From: a virus
DNA: 26,041 bases
Reading direction: 5' to 3' (one strand)
Virus record (IMG/VR): IMGVR_UViG_3300033571_008159
Location: 1 to 26,041 of that record
The notes beneath the pieces were generated by a model. It made no database searches and was not told the origin of the DNA. It saw only the letters and a program-made list of their open reading frames with translations. Both the position numbers and the translations under genes were made by a program. Position 1 is the stretch's first letter; the number at the start of each line of letters is the position of its first letter. Positions 2,955 through 16,316 of the stretch are shown here, in pieces.

Positions 2955-5422
2955 TTACTTCCTTTCCTTGCAGCCTTTTGGGCGTCGAGTTGCATTGCCA
3001 CTTGCGCCTTGTGCTTGGCGATTTCCACGCCGAGCTTGGCTCCTTCTGCCTGCTGGGACTTGGCAAGTTTGTCCCGAGCGGCGGCGGCATTTGCCGCAAC
3101 CTGCATGGCCGCGATTTCTTTTTGCGCGGCGATTCGTGCCATCTCGATTTCGATCTGGTCTGACTTGGCAGCGGCCTCCATAGCCTGCTTCTGGGCCTTG
3201 AGCTCCAAGTCCTTTTGTTTGAGCTGGAGCTCCTGCATCTGCATTTGGACCACGGGGTCCTGCATCTGCTGCATTGCCGCCGCCTGTTGGGCTTGGGCTT
3301 GGTTGCCGCTGACAATCTGCTGAGTCGCCTGCGCGGCCATCATGGCAATCTGGTTGGCCATCTCTGGCGGCAGGTTCTTCTGCTGCTCTTCGGACGGCAG
3401 CGGGGCACCCATGAGTTGCTCAACTTGCAGGCGGAACTTGAATCCAACGTGTTCGTTGATATGAGCCATGACGGCCCCAACAATCTGCTGGGCCATCGGG
3501 TTTTGCTGCAACAGCTGCTGCATGGCCGGGTCCTGCATAAACATCATGTGGACCGCAATATGGGCGTCATGGTTTTGCTCCACAAACGCCTTATTCTTCT
3601 TTCCATTCAAGAAGTTCTGGTTCTCCTGCACCGGATCAACCGGGGTTGCATCATCCTCAATCGGCACCAGCTTGGCAGCGTTCTTGATGCCCAGCACCTC
3701 AATCATCTGCCGGTGCAGCAGGGGCAGGTCATACAACTGCGGGGCAGATTGGGCAAGTTGGAGAACTGCCTGATACTGCACGATCTTCTGCGCCATTGTG
3801 GCGGCGTTCGGGTCGGACACGGGGATGACATCCACCATGTCGTAGTCCATCCTGCGTGCCCTGCGGCTACCCTCGTAAGGCTGGTACTCGTACTCCTCGG
3901 GGCAGAAGTCGGCAATGATGGCCTTGAGCAGTTTAAACTCCTGCTTCATGGCGAAATGCAGGCGCGACTGAACGGCTGTCATCACCTTCAGGGTGCGCTC
4001 AAGAATGGCCAGCGTTGTACCCACCGGGGCCTGACTGGACATGTCAGAGACCTTCATGTCGCCCGACGAAGCAAAGGCGCGGCCCTCCTGAACAATCTGG
4101 TTAAACAGGGCGTAGAGAACTTGGCTGGGCTCTTTGTACGGCAGCGGCAGGATGTTGTCGCGTATCGAACCGGACGGAACATCCACATCTCTGAACTCTC
4201 CCGGAGCAATCGGGGTGTCATCTCCCTTGATGCGCAGACCCCGGCTTTTTAAACCACCGGGCAGGTTTGACAGGGTTCCGGCATCCACCAATTGGCGGAT
4301 AAGCATGGTTGCGCTCTTGGCGTAGCCACCAATCAGGTGGATCAAGCCGTAACCATAGAAGCCAAAGCCCGGGATGTACTGGTAATGCACGAAGTGCTGA
4401 CGCTTCATGTGAAGTTTGTCACCCTCGTACCAGTTGCGGCGGATCGCCAGAATTTTGCTGGTCCCCTTCTCAATGGTGACCACATACGGCAGGGCAATGC
4501 CCGTTTCTTCTCCTGCCTTGTTTGTATGCTCGTATCCCTTGAGGTCAAGGTTTACATGCATTTCAAGGATGCGGAAGCGATCATCCTGAATGGCGGTCAT
4601 GCCGGTTTCTTCGGCCTTTTGCTTCTCGATGTCATCGAGTTCGTATGTAGGCTCCCCCAAGTCCACATCCATATAGAAGCCAGCTTCTTGGAGCTTGAGA
4701 ATCTCGTTGGGGGTCTTGCGCATAACATGCGTCACACGCTCTGCGGTCTCCAGATTAGAGGCTCCATAAGGAACCACAATGTCTTCTGCGGGGATGAATA
4801 CCGCAACCTGCCTGCCTTTGCTGGGGTCGTAGTAGACCTTTTTAAACGCTGAACCTGTGATTGGCAGAGCCCACAGGAGTTTTTCATGCTCCGCCCGGTA
4901 CTCAGTCATAACCTCCGTCAATTGGAAGTTCATGTCCTCCCGAACCCGGGTGGCAGCTTCTTCGCGCATTTTGTCGATGGCCCCAACAATCTGGGTCTTG
5001 ACCGGCCCCATCGCGGGGAAGGTTTCCATCATGGACTCCGACTGGAATCGGACAACGGACTCGGTGAGCATGGGGTGAAAGACCCCGCAGGCTCCGTTCC
5101 ACGGCTCTGTGCGCTCTTCATATTTGAGGCCCAGCAGCTTTAAACCATCAACGTAGGTACGAACCCAATCGCGGCGGTCGCCAATATCTTGAGTGAAATC
5201 ATCAATCAGCTCGGAACCCAGTGAGTCCAAGTCGCTGGGATTCATGTACTCCGCCAAGTTGGCATCAAAATCCTCGGCGGTTTCCGGGGCTGGCATCAGA
5301 TCAATCTCCATGCCGTCAATCCCAATACTCACTGCGTCGGGATTCTCGATCTCAATTTCAACCGCCGGGGCGACATCCATAATCCCAACGGGTGCGCCGT
5401 ACAGAGCTTTATCAATTGCCAT
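2951..5422 (-). CDS. Portal protein, 823 aa
   Basis: Large protein placed after terL, with the makeup of long portal proteins (P22 / podovirus-like size): an acidic N-terminal region with DRRDWVRTYVDGLKLLG and EPWNGACGVFHPMLTES, a central domain with PADIVVPY-like (IPAEDIVVPYGA) and FGFYGYGLIHLIGG motifs, an SSQAPVGTTLAILERTLKVM helix, and about 200 C-terminal residues rich in Gln, Ala and Met that form a coiled coil. The portal is the dodecameric DNA channel at one head vertex and docks the terminase. ATG at 5422 follows AAAGGA. Three TTTAAA sites fall inside the gene as Phe-Lys or Leu-Lys codons, a high local density. Confidence 0.85.
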   Translation of the reverse strand: MAIDKALYGAPVGIMDVAPAVEIEIENPDAVSIGIDGMEIDLMPAPETAEDFDANLAEYMNPSDLDSLGSELIDDFTQDIGDRRDWVRTYVDGLKLLGLKYEERTEPWNGACGVFHPMLTESVVRFQSESMMETFPAMGPVKTQIVGAIDKMREEAATRVREDMNFQLTEVMTEYRAEHEKLLWALPITGSAFKKVYYDPSKGRQVAVFIPAEDIVVPYGASNLETAERVTHVMRKTPNEILKLQEAGFYMDVDLGEPTYELDDIEKQKAEETGMTAIQDDRFRILEMHVNLDLKGYEHTNKAGEETGIALPYVVTIEKGTSKILAIRRNWYEGDKLHMKRQHFVHYQYIPGFGFYGYGLIHLIGGYAKSATMLIRQLVDAGTLSNLPGGLKSRGLRIKGDDTPIAPGEFRDVDVPSGSIRDNILPLPYKEPSQVLYALFNQIVQEGRAFASSGDMKVSDMSSQAPVGTTLAILERTLKVMTAVQSRLHFAMKQEFKLLKAIIADFCPEEYEYQPYEGSRRARRMDYDMVDVIPVSDPNAATMAQKIVQYQAVLQLAQSAPQLYDLPLLHRQMIEVLGIKNAAKLVPIEDDATPVDPVQENQNFLNGKKNKAFVEQNHDAHIAVHMMFMQDPAMQQLLQQNPMAQQIVGAVMAHINEHVGFKFRLQVEQLMGAPLPSEEQQKNLPPEMANQIAMMAAQATQQIVSGNQAQAQQAAAMQQMQDPVVQMQMQELQLKQKDLELKAQKQAMEAAAKSDQIEIEMARIAAQKEIAAMQVAANAAAARDKLAKSQQAEGAKLGVEIAKHKAQVAMQLDAQKAARKGSK

Positions 5423-5432
5423 GATGTGTCCT

Positions 5433-5852
5433 TTAAATAAGTTTTACGCGACCGCCTTTGCGGTACCCCTCGGGCATCTCCGAGGTTGGGAGGAATATGT
5501 CTTTGTCTTTGAGCCCCATGTCGCGGGCCGACTCCACAATTTGTAGGTATTTGTGCGCCCCAATGTCATGGGGTCTACTTGTAAGCAACTCTTTGAGGAT
5601 GGGCAGGAACTTGGGGTTGTCCTTCCACTTTTTTGTGCCGCCACCTTGCCCAACTGCGTCGTTGTAGCCAGAGACAATTGAAAACCCGCTGTCGGGGTTT
5701 GGGTCATATGAGCCGTCTTCCAAACCCTTATGGGTAACACGCACGGCTCCGATCTTGAGCAAGGCATCAAAGTTCAAAGGCCTGTAATCAACCTTCAGGT
5801 CTTGGTTGTCACTTGTCAAAGCCTTGTACTTCTCAAAATCTTTTATCGGCAT
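5433..5852 (-). CDS. Hypothetical protein between terL and portal, 139 aa
   Basis: Starts MPIKDFEKYKALTSDNQDLK, 7 nt after the terL stop, with GAGG 5 nt upstream; longer in-frame versions starting inside terL lack this signal. Residues 50-80 are Gly/Asp/Ser-rich and the C-terminus is short and basic (EGYRKGGRVKLI). That KGGRV-type tail recurs in small head-region proteins of aquatic phages, but I do not know its function. The gene ends 10 nt before the portal start. No enzyme motif is seen. Confidence 0.6.
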   Translation of the reverse strand: MPIKDFEKYKALTSDNQDLKVDYRPLNFDALLKIGAVRVTHKGLEDGSYDPNPDSGFSIVSGYNDAVGQGGGTKKWKDNPKFLPILKELLTSRPHDIGAHKYLQIVESARDMGLKDKDIFLPTSEMPEGYRKGGRVKLI

Positions 5853-8964: not shown

Positions 8965-9143
8965 ATCCTCCCTGCCGTTTAAATATCCCCCATGCACCCT
9001 ACCCCTACCCTGACCCCTTCAGCGCCTTGTAGACCCCTTTTCCCAGAACATGACCCCCTCTAATAAGAGCGCCGAATCCACCCGGAGTGCTACGCACCCA
9101 GAACCCCCCGATCCAATAACCCTACGGTTTAGTCGGGAATGTA

Positions 9144-9173
9144 TTGACCCTGTTTACACGCTAGTGCTATGAT
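9144..9173 (+). promoter_or_regulatory. Rightward early promoter
   Basis: TTGACC (9144-9149), an 18-nt spacer and TATGAT (9168-9173) preceded by TG (extended -10). Transcription would start near 9180 and run through a leader of about 205 nt into the small-gene array. Confidence 0.7.
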
Positions 9174-9197
9174 GCGGCCATGCACTAGTGATAGTGC
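9161..9197. promoter_or_regulatory. Operator-like inverted repeats on the rightward promoter
   Basis: CTAGTGC (9161-9167) abuts the -10 and is mirrored by GCACTAG (9182-9188) 14 nt on. GCACTA (9182-9187) also pairs with TAGTGC (9192-9197). The same GCACTAG word occurs in the promoter at 11585-11611. A shared repressor is inferred. Confidence 0.5.
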
Positions 9198-9200
9198 TTA

Positions 9201-9385
9201 TGTGAACGGCCCACGATACGGTCGGTCTGAGGCGAAACCCGGAGGAAGTCCGGGAGCAAGTCAGACAGGGTTCAGCCCTGTACCAGTCCACCGTGACGGT
9301 AGATAAAACATCTCCCAATAGATGCCAACGTGATGCCCTTTCCGAGGGCATTGCAGTGCCATCTGCACTTAACCCGGAGAAAACC
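9201..9385 (+). promoter_or_regulatory. Long structured 5' leader RNA
   Basis: The untranslated stretch between the promoter and the first small gene holds successive hairpins: GTCTGA/TCAGAC (9225-9230 with 9261-9266) enclosing a second stem CCCGGA/TCCGGG (9238-9254); ACAGGG/CCCTGT (9265-9281); ACCG/CGGT (9290-9300); CATCT/AGATG (9309-9324); and the two-hairpin motif described separately (9330-9369). No coding capacity fits it. It could be an mRNA leader with a regulatory role or a processed small RNA. I do not recognise a known riboswitch. Confidence 0.5.
9330..9369 (+). promoter_or_regulatory. Two-hairpin RNA motif, copy 1
   Basis: Stem A pairs GUGAUGCCCU with AGGGCAUUGC (9330-9339 with 9345-9354), including an invariant tandem U-G/G-U wobble. 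Stem B pairs AGTGC with GCACT (9355-9359 with 9365-9369). The RBS CCGGAG and the ATG at 9386 follow. Confidence 0.65.
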
Positions 9386-9568
9386 ATGTACAACGTCCTT
9401 TTGATCAACGCCAGTGGCTACATCGTTGACCGCAACCACTTTGAAACAGTCACCGAGGCCCTAGCCCTTGCCGATGAATGGTCTACCGACTATCCCGGCC
9501 ATGCAATTGACATCAAGTTTGTCCTGCCTGCCCGTGCGCCGACATGGACTGAATTGACCCTCGCGTGA
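9386..9568 (+). CDS. Small hypothetical protein 1 of the array, 60 aa
   Basis: Starts MYNVLLINASGYIVDRNHFE, preceded by CCGGAG 6 nt upstream; an upstream in-frame ATG lies inside the structured leader and is not used here. The pattern of a beta hairpin followed by a helix (TVTEALALADEWS) and another strand suggests a small alpha/beta fold. No family recognised. It is the first gene after the early rightward promoter, so probably expressed early and possibly host-directed (inference). Confidence 0.65.
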   Translation: MYNVLLINASGYIVDRNHFETVTEALALADEWSTDYPGHAIDIKFVLPARAPTWTELTLA

Positions 9569-9575
9569 TTGCAGT

Positions 9576-9618
9576 CTGATGCCCTGCTTGTCTGGGCATT
9601 GGAGTGCCATCTTGCACT
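9576..9618 (+). promoter_or_regulatory. Two-hairpin RNA motif, copy 2
   Basis: Stem A pairs CUGAUGCCC (9576-9584) with GGGCAUUGG (9594-9602). The closing pair is C-G here but G-C in the other copies, a compensatory change. Stem B is AGTGC/GCACT (9603-9607 with 9614-9618). It starts 8 nt after the stop of the 60-aa gene. Confidence 0.65.
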
Positions 9619-9634
9619 GACCCGGAGAAACAAC

Positions 9635-9790
9635 ATGGAAACCCTGCTCAATAAATACCGCGCCAACCCCACCGCCATCCGTCATGCCGCCGTGCTGACG
9701 TATCACCGCAAACACCCATTCGCTGAGTGCTTGCTTGGTGATGATGACCTTGCCCTGTTGCGCCGCCTGTGTGCATTCAAGCATGACTGA
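9635..9790 (+). CDS. Small hypothetical protein 2 of the array, 51 aa
   Basis: Starts METLLNKYRANPTAIRHAAV after CCGGAG; helical and basic in the first half, ending AFKHD. The last three codons and the stop are part of the hammerhead ribozyme downstream: the stem I strand GCATGA encodes the C-terminal residues and the UGA stop lies in CUGAUGA. No family recognised. Confidence 0.62.
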   Translation: METLLNKYRANPTAIRHAAVLTYHRKHPFAECLLGDDDLALLRRLCAFKHD

Positions 9791-9832
9791 TGAGGCTTAA
9801 ATAGCCGAAACCCCCGCGAGGGGGTCTCATGC
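9781..9832 (+). ncRNA. Hammerhead ribozyme 1 (type I)
   Basis: All core elements are present in order. Stem I strand GCATGA (9781-9786), CUGAUGA core (9787-9793), stem II GGCT-TAAAT-AGCC (9794-9806), GAAA (9807-9810), stem III of five C and five G closed by a GCGA tetraloop (9811-9824), U-C (9825-9826), and the second stem I strand TCATGC (9827-9832), which pairs perfectly with the first. Expected cleavage is between 9826 and 9827, leaving a 24-nt 5'-OH leader with its RBS on the downstream gene and a stable 3' hairpin on the upstream RNA. The upstream gene's stop is inside the core, so terminating ribosomes would compete with folding. Confidence 0.93.
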
Positions 9833-9850
9833 AACCACCGGAGAGAAACC

Positions 9851-10138
9851 ATGACCATCGAATTGACAACCCTCGCCGATGTACTGAAAACATGGGCATT
9901 GCCCGAATTGAAGGATGCCCAGAAAGCATTCAACAAACACCCCAATGGGGTGAATTGGAACCGCTGTTTGAGGGCAATGCTGACCTATCAGCAACTGGAA
10001 TTTGCCCTGCGGTCTTCCACCGTGGACAGGGAAAAACTGATGTTTGATCTTGAGTCAAACTCCCTCGGGCATTGGCAAGATGCTGTTTGCCGAGCAACCA
10101 TGCGCATGACCTGCGCCCATGCCCTGCGGAACATTTAA
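9851..10138 (+). CDS. Small hypothetical protein 3 of the array, 95 aa
   Basis: Starts MTIELTTLADVLKTWALPEL after CCGGAGAG. It is helical throughout, with KAFNKHPNGVNWNRCLRAML and TMRMTCAHALRNI. Its stop codon TAA is embedded in an ATTTAAAC site (10133-10140). It shares a weak pattern (helix, NxxNR, helix, LG-W/D) with the 101-aa protein two genes on (NKHPNGVNWN versus KTPHANRWFD), suggesting a distant duplication. No known family. Confidence 0.68.
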   Translation: MTIELTTLADVLKTWALPELKDAQKAFNKHPNGVNWNRCLRAMLTYQQLEFALRSSTVDREKLMFDLESNSLGHWQDAVCRATMRMTCAHALRNI

Positions 10139-10160
10139 ACCAACTGAGAGGAAAACCACC

Positions 10161-10415
10161 ATGAAAATCACCGTTTACACAGACCCCGGTCACGGTTGGG
10201 GTGCAGTCAAACGTCAACTGCTTGCCGATCTGGGGATCGCCGACAAGGTCTCCACGTATTCATACCAGCGGGGCCAGACGGTCTACCTTGAGGAGGACTG
10301 CGACCTGTCCCTGCTGATCGGGGCACTGCGTGACCGGGGCATAACCCCCGTGTTTGCCGAGCGGCACACAGACCGCCGCAGTCCGATCCGATCCTATGAC
10401 ACCTATCACGCCTGA
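10161..10415 (+). CDS. Small hypothetical protein 4 of the array, 84 aa
   Basis: Starts MKITVYTDPGHGWGAVKRQL with GAGAGGA upstream. It shows a beta-alpha-beta plan: strand ITVYTD, helix AVKRQLLADLG, strands STYSYQRGQTVYLEED, and a short helix LSLLIGALRDRGI before a basic Arg-rich tail. Similar small proteins occur in many phages but I know no function. The gap before it is only 22 nt and carries no ribozyme or hairpin motif. Confidence 0.68.
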   Translation: MKITVYTDPGHGWGAVKRQLLADLGIADKVSTYSYQRGQTVYLEEDCDLSLLIGALRDRGITPVFAERHTDRRSPIRSYDTYHA

Positions 10416-10422
10416 TTCCACC

Positions 10423-10465
10423 GTGATGCACCCTGCCCCGGGTGCATTGCAGTGCAATCCGCACT
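10423..10465 (+). promoter_or_regulatory. Two-hairpin RNA motif, copy 3
   Basis: Stem A is longer here, GTGATGCACCC (10423-10433) with GGGTGCATTGC (10440-10450); the inserted A is matched by an inserted T on the other strand. Stem B is AGTGC/GCACT (10451-10455 with 10461-10465). It starts 7 nt after a stop codon. Confidence 0.68.
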
Positions 10466-10481
10466 TAACCGGAGACCTTCC

Positions 10482-10787
10482 ATGCAAACCACTGACCTCG
10501 ACTCTGCCGCTGTCATTGCAACCCTCAAGGCTGAAGCCCGAAAGGCCAGCAAGAACTTCATCAAGACCCCCCACGCAAATCGGTGGTTCGATATGACCGG
10601 AACCGCCTTTGTGTATCAGCAAGCCTACCTCTTCTTCAACAGTTTTACCCGTAGTCCCCGCGACAAGTTCGCCCTGCTTGCCCTGTTGGCGACCGAGCCG
10701 ATTGACAACTGGGGTGATGTAATTTGCAACTTCGTGCTTGGCGTGTCTCTCGCCGAGGCCCTGCGTGAGTTTGCAACCTTCCCCTGA
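10482..10787 (+). CDS. Small hypothetical protein 5 of the array, 101 aa
   Basis: Starts MQTTDLDSAAVIATLKAEAR after CCGGAGA. Helical, with HANRWFDMTGTAFVYQQAYL and VLGVSLAEALREFATF at the end. Resembles the 95-aa protein in length and helix order, so the two may be paralogues. No known family. Confidence 0.68.
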   Translation: MQTTDLDSAAVIATLKAEARKASKNFIKTPHANRWFDMTGTAFVYQQAYLFFNSFTRSPRDKFALLALLATEPIDNWGDVICNFVLGVSLAEALREFATFP

Positions 10788-10794
10788 TTCCACC

Positions 10795-10834
10795 GTGATG
10801 CCCATTCTGTGGGCATTGCAGTGCAATCCGCACT
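10795..10834 (+). promoter_or_regulatory. Two-hairpin RNA motif, copy 4
   Basis: Stem A GTGATGCCCA (10795-10804) with TGGGCATTGC (10810-10819); stem B AGTGC/GCACT (10820-10824 with 10830-10834). The flanks (TTCCACC before it, AATCC in loop B) match copy 3 closely, so these two are the most recent duplicates. Confidence 0.68.
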
Positions 10835-10850
10835 TCACTGGAGAAGACAA

Positions 10851-11207
10851 ATGAACTACAAGACACAAGCACAAGCCGCCCTCTCAGGCATCAAGCAACT
10901 TGGCATTCTGGGCGATGCCATCCGGGCCAAGGAAACTGGCGACATGGGCGGTTTGGCCTACATCGTTGGCATGGCTCTCAACACCGGTGACTCCGTCAAG
11001 TGGGGCCTGCTGTTCGCCGTTGGGGATGAACTCGATGCCATCAAGTTGCAGGCAGAGATCGATGCCATCGATGCCATGCGTGAGCGAATCGCCTACCTCG
11101 AAAGAAAAAGCGAGGCAATGTGGCTTGAAGATCAAGACAACGATGCGTGGGAGCGAGAGCAAGCCCATGTCCGGTACGCCGAGGCTGGCGGTCGCAAGCA
11201 CAACTGA
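10851..11207 (+). CDS. Small hypothetical protein 6 of the array, 118 aa
   Basis: Starts MNYKTQAQAALSGIKQLGIL. An Ala/Gly-rich N-terminal half (residues 10-60) with moderately hydrophobic helices (GLAYIVGMALNTG, WGLLFAVGDEL) is followed by a long charged coiled coil (AIDAMRERIAYLERKSEAMW). It ends RKHN, with those codons forming the first strand of hammerhead 2. A weak membrane association is possible for the first half. No family recognised. Confidence 0.68.
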   Translation: MNYKTQAQAALSGIKQLGILGDAIRAKETGDMGGLAYIVGMALNTGDSVKWGLLFAVGDELDAIKLQAEIDAIDAMRERIAYLERKSEAMWLEDQDNDAWEREQAHVRYAEAGGRKHN

Positions 11208-11247
11208 TGAGACCTGAATGGTCGAAACCCCTTCGGGGGTCTTGTGC
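11198..11247 (+). ncRNA. Hammerhead ribozyme 2 (type I)
   Basis: Stem I GCACAA (11198-11203) with TTGTGC (11242-11247); CUGAUGA core (11204-11210); stem II GACC-TGAAT-GGTC (11211-11223); GAAA (11224-11227); stem III CCCC-TTCG-GGGG (11228-11239); U-C (11240-11241) with cleavage expected after 11241. Against ribozyme 1, all three stems have changed with pairing kept, while the core and the stem II loop (UAAAU versus UGAAU) are conserved. The stop codon of the 118-aa gene is again the UGA of the core. The downstream RNA would begin 25 nt before the next ATG. Confidence 0.93.
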
Positions 11248-11266
11248 AACTAACCGGAGACCAACC

Positions 11267-11428
11267 ATGCCAACGAAAACCGAGATTTATGAATACCTGT
11301 GCGCCCTGCGCGATTCGGGCGAGGTCAACATGTTCTTAGCCTCGCCCTACCTTGAATATGAATTCGGCATGACCCGTGCCGAGGCCAAGCAAGCCTTGCT
11401 TGATTGGATAAGATCATTTAAACGATGA
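11267..11428 (+). CDS. Small conserved phage protein 7 of the array, 53 aa
   Basis: Starts MPTKTEIYEYLCALRDSGEV after CCGGAGA and continues NMFLASPYLEYEFGMTRAEA. The LRDSGE-NMF-A-PYL-EFG-EA-LLDW pattern is one I recognise from small proteins of unknown function in several phages and cyanophages. It is helical and acidic, ending FKR on an ATTTAAAC site. Last gene of the ribozyme array. Confidence 0.68.
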   Translation: MPTKTEIYEYLCALRDSGEVNMFLASPYLEYEFGMTRAEAKQALLDWIRSFKR

Positions 11429-11441
11429 TGACTTGGCCCTT

Positions 11442-11457
11442 CCCACCCCCGGGTGGG
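11442..11457 (+). terminator. Possible terminator or 3' hairpin after the array
   Basis: CCCACCC (11442-11448) and GGGTGGG (11451-11457) form a very stable stem, but no T-run follows, so termination is unsure. It may instead protect the 3' end of the array RNA. The rest of the 11429-11636 gap holds a small GGGC/GCCC hairpin, GTTTAAAT at 11564 and the promoter at 11585. Confidence 0.35.
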
Positions 11458-11584
11458 CCTGTCCCGTGGACACCCGCGCAGGAGAGGGCCTACCGGCTCA
11501 AGCACAAACCCGCGCCACCTGACGGGCCTGATGCCCCCTTCTGATGACCGTACCTTTCCCGTTGTTTAAATGCAACATGGGTAC

Positions 11585-11611
11585 TTGCACTAGCACCATC
11601 GGTGCTACAAT
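11585..11611 (+). promoter_or_regulatory. Promoter and operator before the SprT-like gene
   Basis: TTGCAC (11585-11590), a 15-nt spacer and TACAAT (11606-11611) with TG one base upstream (extended -10). The spacer is a perfect inverted repeat AGCACC-ATC-GGTGCT (11592-11606), and GCACTAG (11587-11593) repeats the word found at the early rightward promoter. Predicted RNA start is about 20 nt before the ATG. Confidence 0.55.
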
Positions 11612-11636
11612 CACAATCACCAACCGGAGAAACAAA

Positions 11637-12218
11637 ATGTCTATGTCCTACAGCACCCGTGAAGAATGGCTGACCGCCGCCGTTGAGGAACTTCGCCCCG
11701 TTTTCGGGGCAGTCAACAAACCCATCCCCGCCAAAATCCGGGTCGCCTGTGGCTTCCCGTTGGATGCCAAGCGTAGCAAGGCCATCGGCCAATGTTGGGC
11801 CGACACCGCCAGCGGGGACAAGACCATCGAGATTCTGATCTCGCCGGTGCTGGACAAACCCTCCGAGGTTTTCGAGGTGCTGGTGCATGAGTTGTGCCAT
11901 GCCACGGCAGGTGCGTTTAACCACGGCGTGAATTTTCAAAAGGTCGCCGCCATGATGGGTCTGGTTGCCTGCGGGGGTGGAAAGCAATCATGGAAGTCCA
12001 CCAAGGGCAATGCCGACTTCCTCCAGACCTATGGAGCGATTATCGATTCGCTCCAAGACTACCCGCATGCCGCCCTGACGTACCGGGACAAAAAGACGCA
12101 GGGAACCCGCCTGCTGAAGGCTATGTGCCCGTCCTGCGGGTACACCATTCGATTGACCCAGAAATGGGCCGACCAAGGCCTGCCTACCTGCCCCTGCGGC
12201 GACCAGTTGTCACTTTAA
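11637..12218 (+). CDS. SprT-like zinc metallopeptidase, 193 aa
   Basis: A zinc-dependent protease-like fold. HELCH at residues 84-88 is the HExxH zinc-binding and catalytic motif, followed by a third ligand region around FNHGVNFQKVAAMMG. The C-terminus has a zinc-ribbon pair, CPSCGY and CPCGD, as in SprT/Spartan-like proteins. Host Spartan-type enzymes cut DNA-protein crosslinks; the phage target is unknown. Start: CCGGAGA 7 nt before ATG 11637. The stop TAA overlaps a CTTTAAAC site. It is the first gene of a three-gene unit with an AAA+ ATPase and a VWA protein. Confidence 0.83.
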   Translation: MSMSYSTREEWLTAAVEELRPVFGAVNKPIPAKIRVACGFPLDAKRSKAIGQCWADTASGDKTIEILISPVLDKPSEVFEVLVHELCHATAGAFNHGVNFQKVAAMMGLVACGGGKQSWKSTKGNADFLQTYGAIIDSLQDYPHAALTYRDKKTQGTRLLKAMCPSCGYTIRLTQKWADQGLPTCPCGDQLSL

Positions 12219-16163: not shown

Positions 16164-16316
16164 ATGACCTACAACCTGCGATCTGATGAGTCATACGAAG
16201 ACGAAATGTACGACCTCTACCTTGAGCGTCAGGCCCGTCTGCGCTACGAGCGCACCTTGGCCCGACACCCAGACCCGCAAGACCCAGACTACCCGGAGAT
16301 CGATGATGAAGCATGA
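16164..16316 (+). CDS. Small charged hypothetical protein, 50 aa
   Basis: MTYNLRSDESYEDEMYDLYL, then ERQARLRYERTLARH and a Pro/Asp-rich tail DPQDPDYPEID. GTTTAAAC (16144-16151) and AGGAG precede the ATG. No family recognised. A CUGAUGA and GAAA in its coding sequence imitate part of a hammerhead but the flanking stems are missing. Confidence 0.58.
   Translation: MTYNLRSDESYEDEMYDLYLERQARLRYERTLARHPDPQDPDYPEIDDEA

Follow-up and report, generated by a model that had tools for sequence, protein, structure and literature searches.

The window analysed here, the whole of the 26,041-base virus record IMGVR_UViG_3300033571_008159 of IMG/VR, comes from a tailed phage in which an array of small plus-strand genes (g1–g7) is interspersed with two kinds of RNA element, namely two hammerhead ribozymes (HHR1 and HHR2) and four copies of a second motif, termed M2. 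The hammerheads are of a known kind, and what is new is the mixed array, in which they are joined by a second, apparently undescribed RNA. With a probability of roughly three in four, the type I hammerheads would mark the boundaries of small-gene transcripts, with M2, which occupies the same kind of slot, therefore most likely doing a related boundary job, favoured as that of a processing or insulating hairpin.

HHR1 (9781..9832, plus strand) fills the gap between g2 and g3, and HHR2 (11198..11247, plus strand) that between g6 and g7, with predicted cleavage at 9826^9827 and 11241^11242 respectively. In HHR1, stem I pairs GCATGA (9781–9786) with TCATGC (9827–9832), stem II pairs GGCT (9794–9797) with AGCC (9803–9806), and stem III pairs ACCCCC (9810–9815) with GGGGGT (9820–9825) under a GCGA loop, around the core CTGATGA (9787–9793), GAA (9807–9809), and C17 at 9826. 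The corresponding parts of HHR2 are GCACAA (11198–11203) and TTGTGC (11242–11247) in stem I, GACC (11211–11214) and GGTC (11220–11223) in stem II, and ACCCC (11227–11231) and GGGGT (11236–11240) with a TTCG loop in stem III, with the core at 11204–11210, GAA at 11224–11226, and C17 at 11241. Both copies possess the CUGANGA and GAA core with the A15.1-U16.1 pair, as evident from the sequence and from alignment to the R3 model described below, and both carry GUC as a cleavage triplet of the NUH type. Stem I is open and stems II and III are closed by loops, in the sequence and in folds of the elements alone. The stop codons of g2 (TGA, 9788–9790) and g6 (TGA, 11205–11207) lie inside the cores of HHR1 and HHR2, so that stem I spans the gene boundary and its 5′ strand encodes the last residues of the upstream protein, KHD and KHN respectively. 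The initial annotation, which had described each copy as having its core and stems I to III intact and a cleavage site of the U-C type, is exact to the base on re-reading, and the 5′-OH ends it predicted at 9827 and 11242 are correctly placed, 24 and 25 nucleotides (nt) before the ATGs at 9851 and 11267.

Both elements are strongly recognised by R3, a covariance model of 53 hammerheads from 38 loci from which the window and nine related loci were excluded, and which still contains L052 (with a g7 relative), L095 and L096 (with g4 relatives), and L143 (a relative of the phage). Its alignment (A5) retains 53 of 73 references, with long or atypical stems or loops omitted, and so describes the group with a six-pair stem I. 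R3 was run on the window, 67 other sources, and 8 more, and in the window it scores HHR1 at 79.7 bits (expectation value (E) 1.3e-19) and HHR2 at 70.5 bits (E 4.7e-17), with no third match up to E 1. A three-stem scan of 300 dinucleotide shuffles of the window returned no match scoring 13 or more. The simpler pattern CTGATGA...GAAA occurs three times in the window against 0.5 expected, with the third occurrence, at 16183, rejected as it overlaps open reading frames (ORFs) and has no R3 match. Folding of each element alone gives the hammerhead as the minimum for HHR1 (z -4.76) and HHR2 (z -3.03), and the minimum fold of HHR2 stays a hammerhead in a 131-nt context. By sequence and structure, HHR1 and HHR2 are type I hammerheads.

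The same kind of element is widespread, with a pattern of core and short stem III matching at least 119 IMG/VR stretches. Stems I (at least 4 pairs) and II (at least 3 pairs), which the pattern does not require, form in 108 of 126 distinct matches, and a six-pair stem I, the maximum counted, is reached by 86 of them. A stricter scan, covering 153 of 156 records once L001, L036, and L037 had been set aside as duplicates of the window, yielded 155 distinct hammerheads; they lie in 96 records, 33 of which, including the window, hold two to five copies. An upstream stop at -14..+1 together with an ATG 17–45 nt past the cut, both counted from ORFs of at least 35 codons, accompanies 114 of the 154 hammerheads with enough upstream DNA, compared with 63 of 3080 random positions (2%) in the same loci. 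The phage hammerheads surveyed are therefore gene-boundary elements as a class, and the intergenic, processor-like placement ascribed to the window copies is shared by most of their relatives. Where a qualifying stop falls at the place of the core TGA (42 hammerheads), the upstream protein ends in KHN in five. The residues flanking stem I, which the searches leave free, are also conserved, with A before it in 47/53 and AA after it in 44/53 and 47/53, as are U (47/53) and A (45/53) of a U-N-A in loop II, likewise free; these conserved unpaired residues suggest that loop II may touch stem I in a tertiary contact, as in hammerheads of the fast, extended kind. Changes on both sides of a pair are seen in 14 of 16 hammerhead pairs in a set selected for pairing, and the 99.6% pairing of that set is partly circular, as both the collection pattern and the scan require paired stems; the R3 E-values, stems I and II in the pattern matches, the flanks and loop II, and the placement test are free of this circularity. 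C17 is C in 150/155 hammerheads, partly imposed by the pattern, which demands this C for most loci. An intact hammerhead copy is kept in L007, from a related phage. The contigs are partly close kin (L171 and L178 carry the same hammerhead), and the counts are not of independent events.

M2 is found on the plus strand between a leader RNA and g1 (copy 1, 9317..9371), between g1 and g2 (copy 2, 9565..9619), between g4 and g5 (copy 3, 10412..10467), and between g5 and g6 (copy 4, 10782..10836). Each copy is supported by its fold and by two models, R1 (E 6.1e-10, 8.2e-12, 8.3e-11, and 1.1e-12 for copies 1 to 4) and R2 (E 1.9e-11, 5.4e-10, 8.4e-10, and 2.2e-14). R1 comprises 26 copies outside the window (alignment A1) and was run on 153 of 156 sources; R2 was run on 177 of 189 sources, most of the others being second copies of contigs, and later on L156, L001, and L188. 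The rows of A1 (26) and of a further alignment, A4 (40), were hand-picked, with window rows excluded. The motif is one irregular hairpin of about 18 pairs, with a lower stem of 4–7 pairs, an upper stem of 8–11 pairs, and a loop, and with a Y/C mismatch, CA/UG, and a 2x2 loop SC/AG between the stems. In 40 copies (39 distinct), changes on both sides occur in 15 of 18 pairs and 88.8% of cells pair, giving a covariation score of 0.513 compared with at most 0.098 for slid versions; within the window, the lower stem changes from GATG/CATC in copy 1 to GATT/AATC in copies 3 and 4. The second RNA motif, whose mixture with hammerheads had been pointed out in the initial annotation, is thus a real covarying RNA. 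None of the four window copies matches a family of Rfam 15 up to E 5, and no M2-like phage intergenic hairpin appears among the literature titles listed in searches that covered few subscription journals; M2 is apparently an undescribed RNA. One pattern, for one M2 subclass, found no match in bacterial genome contigs. M2 was also considered as a hammerhead variant and rejected, with CTGATG present in only some copies and unconserved, and the GAAA junction absent.

The placement of M2 was counted over 112 copies (114 distinct copies less two without AGTG, at 1034 in L179 and 1250 in L164, the second copies L157 and L187 being excluded). An upstream stop lies near 94 of the 112 (82 TGA, 10 TAA, and 2 TAG), and 60 of these 94 stops occupy the base of the lower stem, one nucleotide after the model begins. 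The A of AGTGC is separated from the next ATG by 30–35 nt in 86/102 copies. As [AG]GTGC served as the seed of the M2 searches, part of the invariance of AGTGC comes from the searches themselves. A downstream GCAC able to pair with AGTGC is present in 78 of the 112 copies, which provides the 3′ strand of M2 with an alternative hairpin after cutting or melting of the long one. A two-hairpin M2, composed of the upper stem, an AGTGC/GCACT hairpin, and TTCC paired with the ribosome-binding site, was rejected. In A1, the share of cells that pair is 73.1% for AGTGC/GCACT and 86.5% for TTCC/GGAG, yet neither of these has any pair with changes on both sides, whereas 12 of the 18 pairs of the single long hairpin do. 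AGTGC/GCAC is possibly an alternative fold of M2, with the TTCC pairing as a possible minor one. In M2 copies without GCAC, from L003, L004, L005, L006, L007, L088, and L154, GTTTAAAC stands behind AGTGCAA, and TTTAAA stretches resembling it recur in the window.

Hammerheads and M2 occur together on 18 contigs (the window/L001, L007, L045, L088, L091, L104, L115, L137, L143, L150, L154, L158, L163, L166, L171, L178, L184, and L186), and 7 of 26 new loci retrieved by M2 patterns alone also contain hammerheads. The mixed contigs are mostly relatives of the window phage, exceptions including L045, which is matched by only the terminase among 22 window proteins (35% identity), and L091, which is matched by none. 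In L045, three M2 copies alternate with three hammerheads. R3 finds no hammerhead in eleven SprT-bearing loci without an R2 match (L009, L010, L011, L013, L017, L018, L026, and L032–L035), several of which are short fragments. With window copies counted, g2-like genes lie behind M2 in 13 of 17 cases and never behind a hammerhead, and g3-like genes lie behind a hammerhead in four, behind M2 in six, and behind neither in nine, with sprT-like genes placed behind M2 in 22/64 and behind a hammerhead in none. Clustering of the genes downstream of 64 M2 copies and 155 hammerheads gave 34 families of at least two members, three of which have members behind M2 and members behind a hammerhead. Within the window, the paralogues g3 and g5 (27% identical) are preceded by a hammerhead and by M2 respectively. 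Related genes can carry either element and close orthologues mostly keep their kind, with an exchange of elements at one same slot being suggested.

Other fillers of such slots were also seen. A third repeat of 46 nt, at 3543-3588 and 5584-5629 of L045 (98% identical), lies in the M2/hammerhead array of that contig, its second copy standing directly before AGGAGC...ATG at 5630, and may be a third type of spacer. Hairpin-rich fillers that are neither M2 nor hammerhead occur in L002 (about 2560-2645), in L124 upstream of 3550 (minus-strand coordinates), and in L013 (5181-5240).

In the explanation proposed here, transcription would probably start just 5′ of the leader RNA and run through g1–g7. 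At each hammerhead gap, the core TGA serves as the upstream stop and the next Shine-Dalgarno sequence is found immediately past the 3′ side of stem I. Self-cleavage would fall between C17 and the base that opens the 3′ strand of stem I, splitting the polycistronic RNA so that the downstream part carries a leader of 24–25 nt with a 5′-OH. While a ribosome stands at the upstream stop it would mask the core, so that cleavage should precede its arrival or follow its departure. M2, in the same kind of slot, is preferably read as a hairpin for processing or insulation, comparable to the sites that RNase III cuts in T7 early mRNA, and after cutting or opening, its AGTGC 3′ strand could pair with the nearby downstream GCAC as a short hairpin before the ribosome-binding site. 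Both elements would take part in defining the ends of the mRNAs. Their common placement hints that the hammerhead and M2 reach one goal by separate routes, with M2 probably a second boundary element, either a hairpin processed in the manner of RNase III sites, an insulator or, with lower likelihood, a new ribozyme; that placement is equally compatible with a role confined to translation or insulation. In a bolder form, which we hold tentatively and at somewhat under even odds, M2 would be an undescribed class of RNA that cuts or is cut at hammerhead-type boundaries, giving some phages two RNA punctuation systems within one operon, and at its boldest a new minimal self-cleaving ribozyme.

Several observations weigh against this explanation. 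No element precedes g4, the SprT gene of the window, or 42 of the 64 sprT-like genes, so no element is obligatory. Among g3-like genes, identity to g3 is 49-100% for the four behind hammerheads and 27-35% for the six behind M2, window g5 included; this mixed group may reflect paralogy instead of an exchange at a single slot. Both HHR1 and HHR2 score under the Rfam gathering cut-offs: in E-value mode, both are seen weakly, and the best results are RF02275 (Hammerhead_HH9) for HHR2, at 28.3 bits (E 0.0026; gathering 52 bits), and RF03152 (RAGATH-1-hammerhead) for HHR1, at 26.1 bits (E 1.7; gathering 56.3 bits), so that the window copies share the core of these families but are not members of either. 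At gathering, Rfam reports no match in 12 sources, window included, in which the present scan finds 29 hammerheads, for which reason the abundance of hammerheads in phages is probably underestimated. With respect to M2, residues A41, G42, and U43 on one strand are invariant in 40/40 copies, partly as a selection effect, and RNase III is not known to need this much. The first M2 copy follows the leader RNA and not an array gene, and stop-codon coupling is therefore not the only role of M2. Finally, in the 131-nt context, the minimum fold of HHR1 gives up stem I to upstream pairing.

The competing fold of HHR1 would be expected if HHR1 and HHR2 were degenerate or misfolded, inactive relics, however the core and all stems are intact in both copies and in the copy of L007, and three tandem hammerhead sets tested elsewhere were active (PMC3088659), making this the most improbable of the explanations considered. 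Scarcely more credible is the proposal that the elements are DNA-level boundaries, short conserved stretches at gene junctions through which small-gene cassettes recombine, and that their RNA structure is of secondary importance. The array genes are indeed small, variable, and partly paralogous, and related genes are found with different elements, but pairing is kept despite wide sequence variation in 15/18 M2 pairs and in 14/16 pairs of the pairing-selected hammerheads. DNA homology would instead conserve sequence, and the covariation argues against exchange boundaries as the sole explanation.

More weight attaches to the possibility that both hammerhead and M2 are mainly translational devices, compact structures joining the stop to the next ribosome-binding site for insulation or coupling, with hammerhead cleavage incidental or absent. 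In both classes the stop falls within the element or at its base and the ATG follows at a narrowly fixed distance, and M2 offers two mutually exclusive folds, the long hairpin or AGTGC/GCAC. This alternative, which we regard as rather unlikely, leaves the conserved unpaired residues flanking the core unexplained, as well as the near-constant C17 (partly imposed, as noted above) and the position of M2 copy 1 behind the leader RNA instead of a gene. It is also conceivable, if quite unlikely, that M2 is a new small class of self-cleaving ribozyme doing the hammerhead's job itself. The same kind of slot, the 18 shared contigs, including L045 and L091 with little or nothing in common with the window phage, and the invariant residues around the internal loop are consistent with a ribozyme, and twister sister, pistol, and hatchet were themselves found through association with hammerhead-linked genes (PMC4604425). 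The conserved unpaired part of M2 (Y/C and SC/AG) is however tiny, neither a larger junction nor a pseudoknot was seen, certain copies are nearly a continuous helix, and none of the known ribozyme models matches. With about 18 pairs, mismatches among them, conserved by covariation, M2 fits the form expected of an RNase III site, an intergenic helix of about two turns with mismatches.

M2 may be likened to the RNase III sites of phage T7 and differs from them in having AGUGC conserved on one strand and a stop codon at its foot. The early polycistronic RNA of T7, made by the host polymerase, is cut at RNase III hairpins into mono- and dicistronic mRNAs, and its R1.1 RNA is cleaved at one bond (PMC4858673); of the proven cases in which hairpins direct the processing of early phage mRNA, this transcript comes closest. 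Unlike pistol, hatchet, and twister-sister, M2 shows no junction or pseudoknot, and it has no Rfam match. The kind of genomic association is the same for all of them (PMC4604425).

The view of the initial annotation that repeated use of hammerheads as gene spacers is in itself unusual in phages is not supported, given the at least 119 IMG/VR stretches noted above and the clusters of Perreault et al. 2011 (PMC3088659), who describe prophage hammerheads flanking single genes or short blocks, propose that long phage RNAs are thereby cut into single-gene mRNAs, and report that three tandem sets cleaved in vitro and one in E. coli. The window array resembles these clusters in having several hammerheads flanking genes in phage DNA, and differs from them in its type I architecture with a mostly six-pair stem I, its stop often in the core, and its second RNA motif. 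The main text of that paper does not use the term “stop codon”, and the parts of it examined mention neither a partner motif nor an overlap with stops. A review of 2017 (PMC6155905) regards the biological role of prokaryotic and phage hammerheads as still open. A covarying partner in the same kind of slot offers a handle on that role, as the function of M2 may be that of the hammerhead, or the reverse. Should M2 be a nuclease site, the hammerheads here would be its host-independent substitute, and should it self-cleave, it would constitute a new ribozyme class. The strict placement, with a stop in or beside the core and an ATG at a set distance, makes the processing model directly testable.

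Elsewhere in the window, terminase and portal genes occupy the minus strand in the left part, and the plus strand carries g1–g7 followed by a SprT-like gene (labelled by the name its relatives carry), an ATPase gene, and a further gene. The top PHROG for the ATPase gene is “porphyrin biosynthesis”; we take this gene to be CobS-like, and the gene after it is presumably CobT-like. A 61-kilobase (kb) relative in IMG/VR, L001, has an identical SprT protein and the same RNA elements as the window. The array genes, all on the plus strand and all unmatched in Pfam and PHROG at E 0.001, are as follows: g1 (9386..9568, 60 amino acids (aa), stop 9566-9568) and g2 (9635..9790, 51 aa) have M2 in front, with the 3′ end of g2 within HHR1; g3 (9851..10138, 95 aa), preceded by HHR1, matches its paralogue g5 at E about 6e-5; g4 (10161..10415, 84 aa, stop 10413-10415) follows an element-free gap of 22 nt, with an 88% identical relative in L150 placed behind a hammerhead; g5 (10482..10787, 101 aa, stop 10785-10787) and g6 (10851..11207, 118 aa) are again preceded by M2, with the 3′ end of g6 within HHR2; and g7 (11267..11428, 53 aa) follows HHR2.

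At the head of the array is a structured leader RNA (9204..9316, plus strand), aligned in 11 loci (the window, L002-L007, L014, L088, L150, and L154). It comprises four predicted hairpins and extended segments without variation, TAGA.AAA and GTCCAC among them, with changes on both sides in 9 of 29 predicted pairs, and an M2 match stands directly behind it in 10 of the 11 loci, L002 being the exception. The window copy has no Rfam match. Upstream of it lies a candidate sigma-70-like promoter (9144..9173, plus strand; TTGACC-18-TATGAT, 10/12) that rests on a consensus match, from a weak scan that gave no excess in the window (2 matches vs 2.1 in shuffles); the same weak scan shows no promoter-like match on the plus strand within the array. 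Repeats resembling CACTAGTG, at about 9158-9200 and 11585-11610, lie near promoter-like stretches, with similar letters in relatives, and could be operators.

Limnohabitans phage DC33 (PQ492659.1, L156; 39 kb), whose record label of Inoviridae is ill-suited to that size, yields no element with the R2 and R3 models in the 28 kb of its sequence scanned. The sole part of 9100-11700 that matches this phage includes a short ORF, g8 (11425-11544, 39 aa, MMTWPFPPPGG...), which overlaps the end of g7 and has a 73% match in L013.

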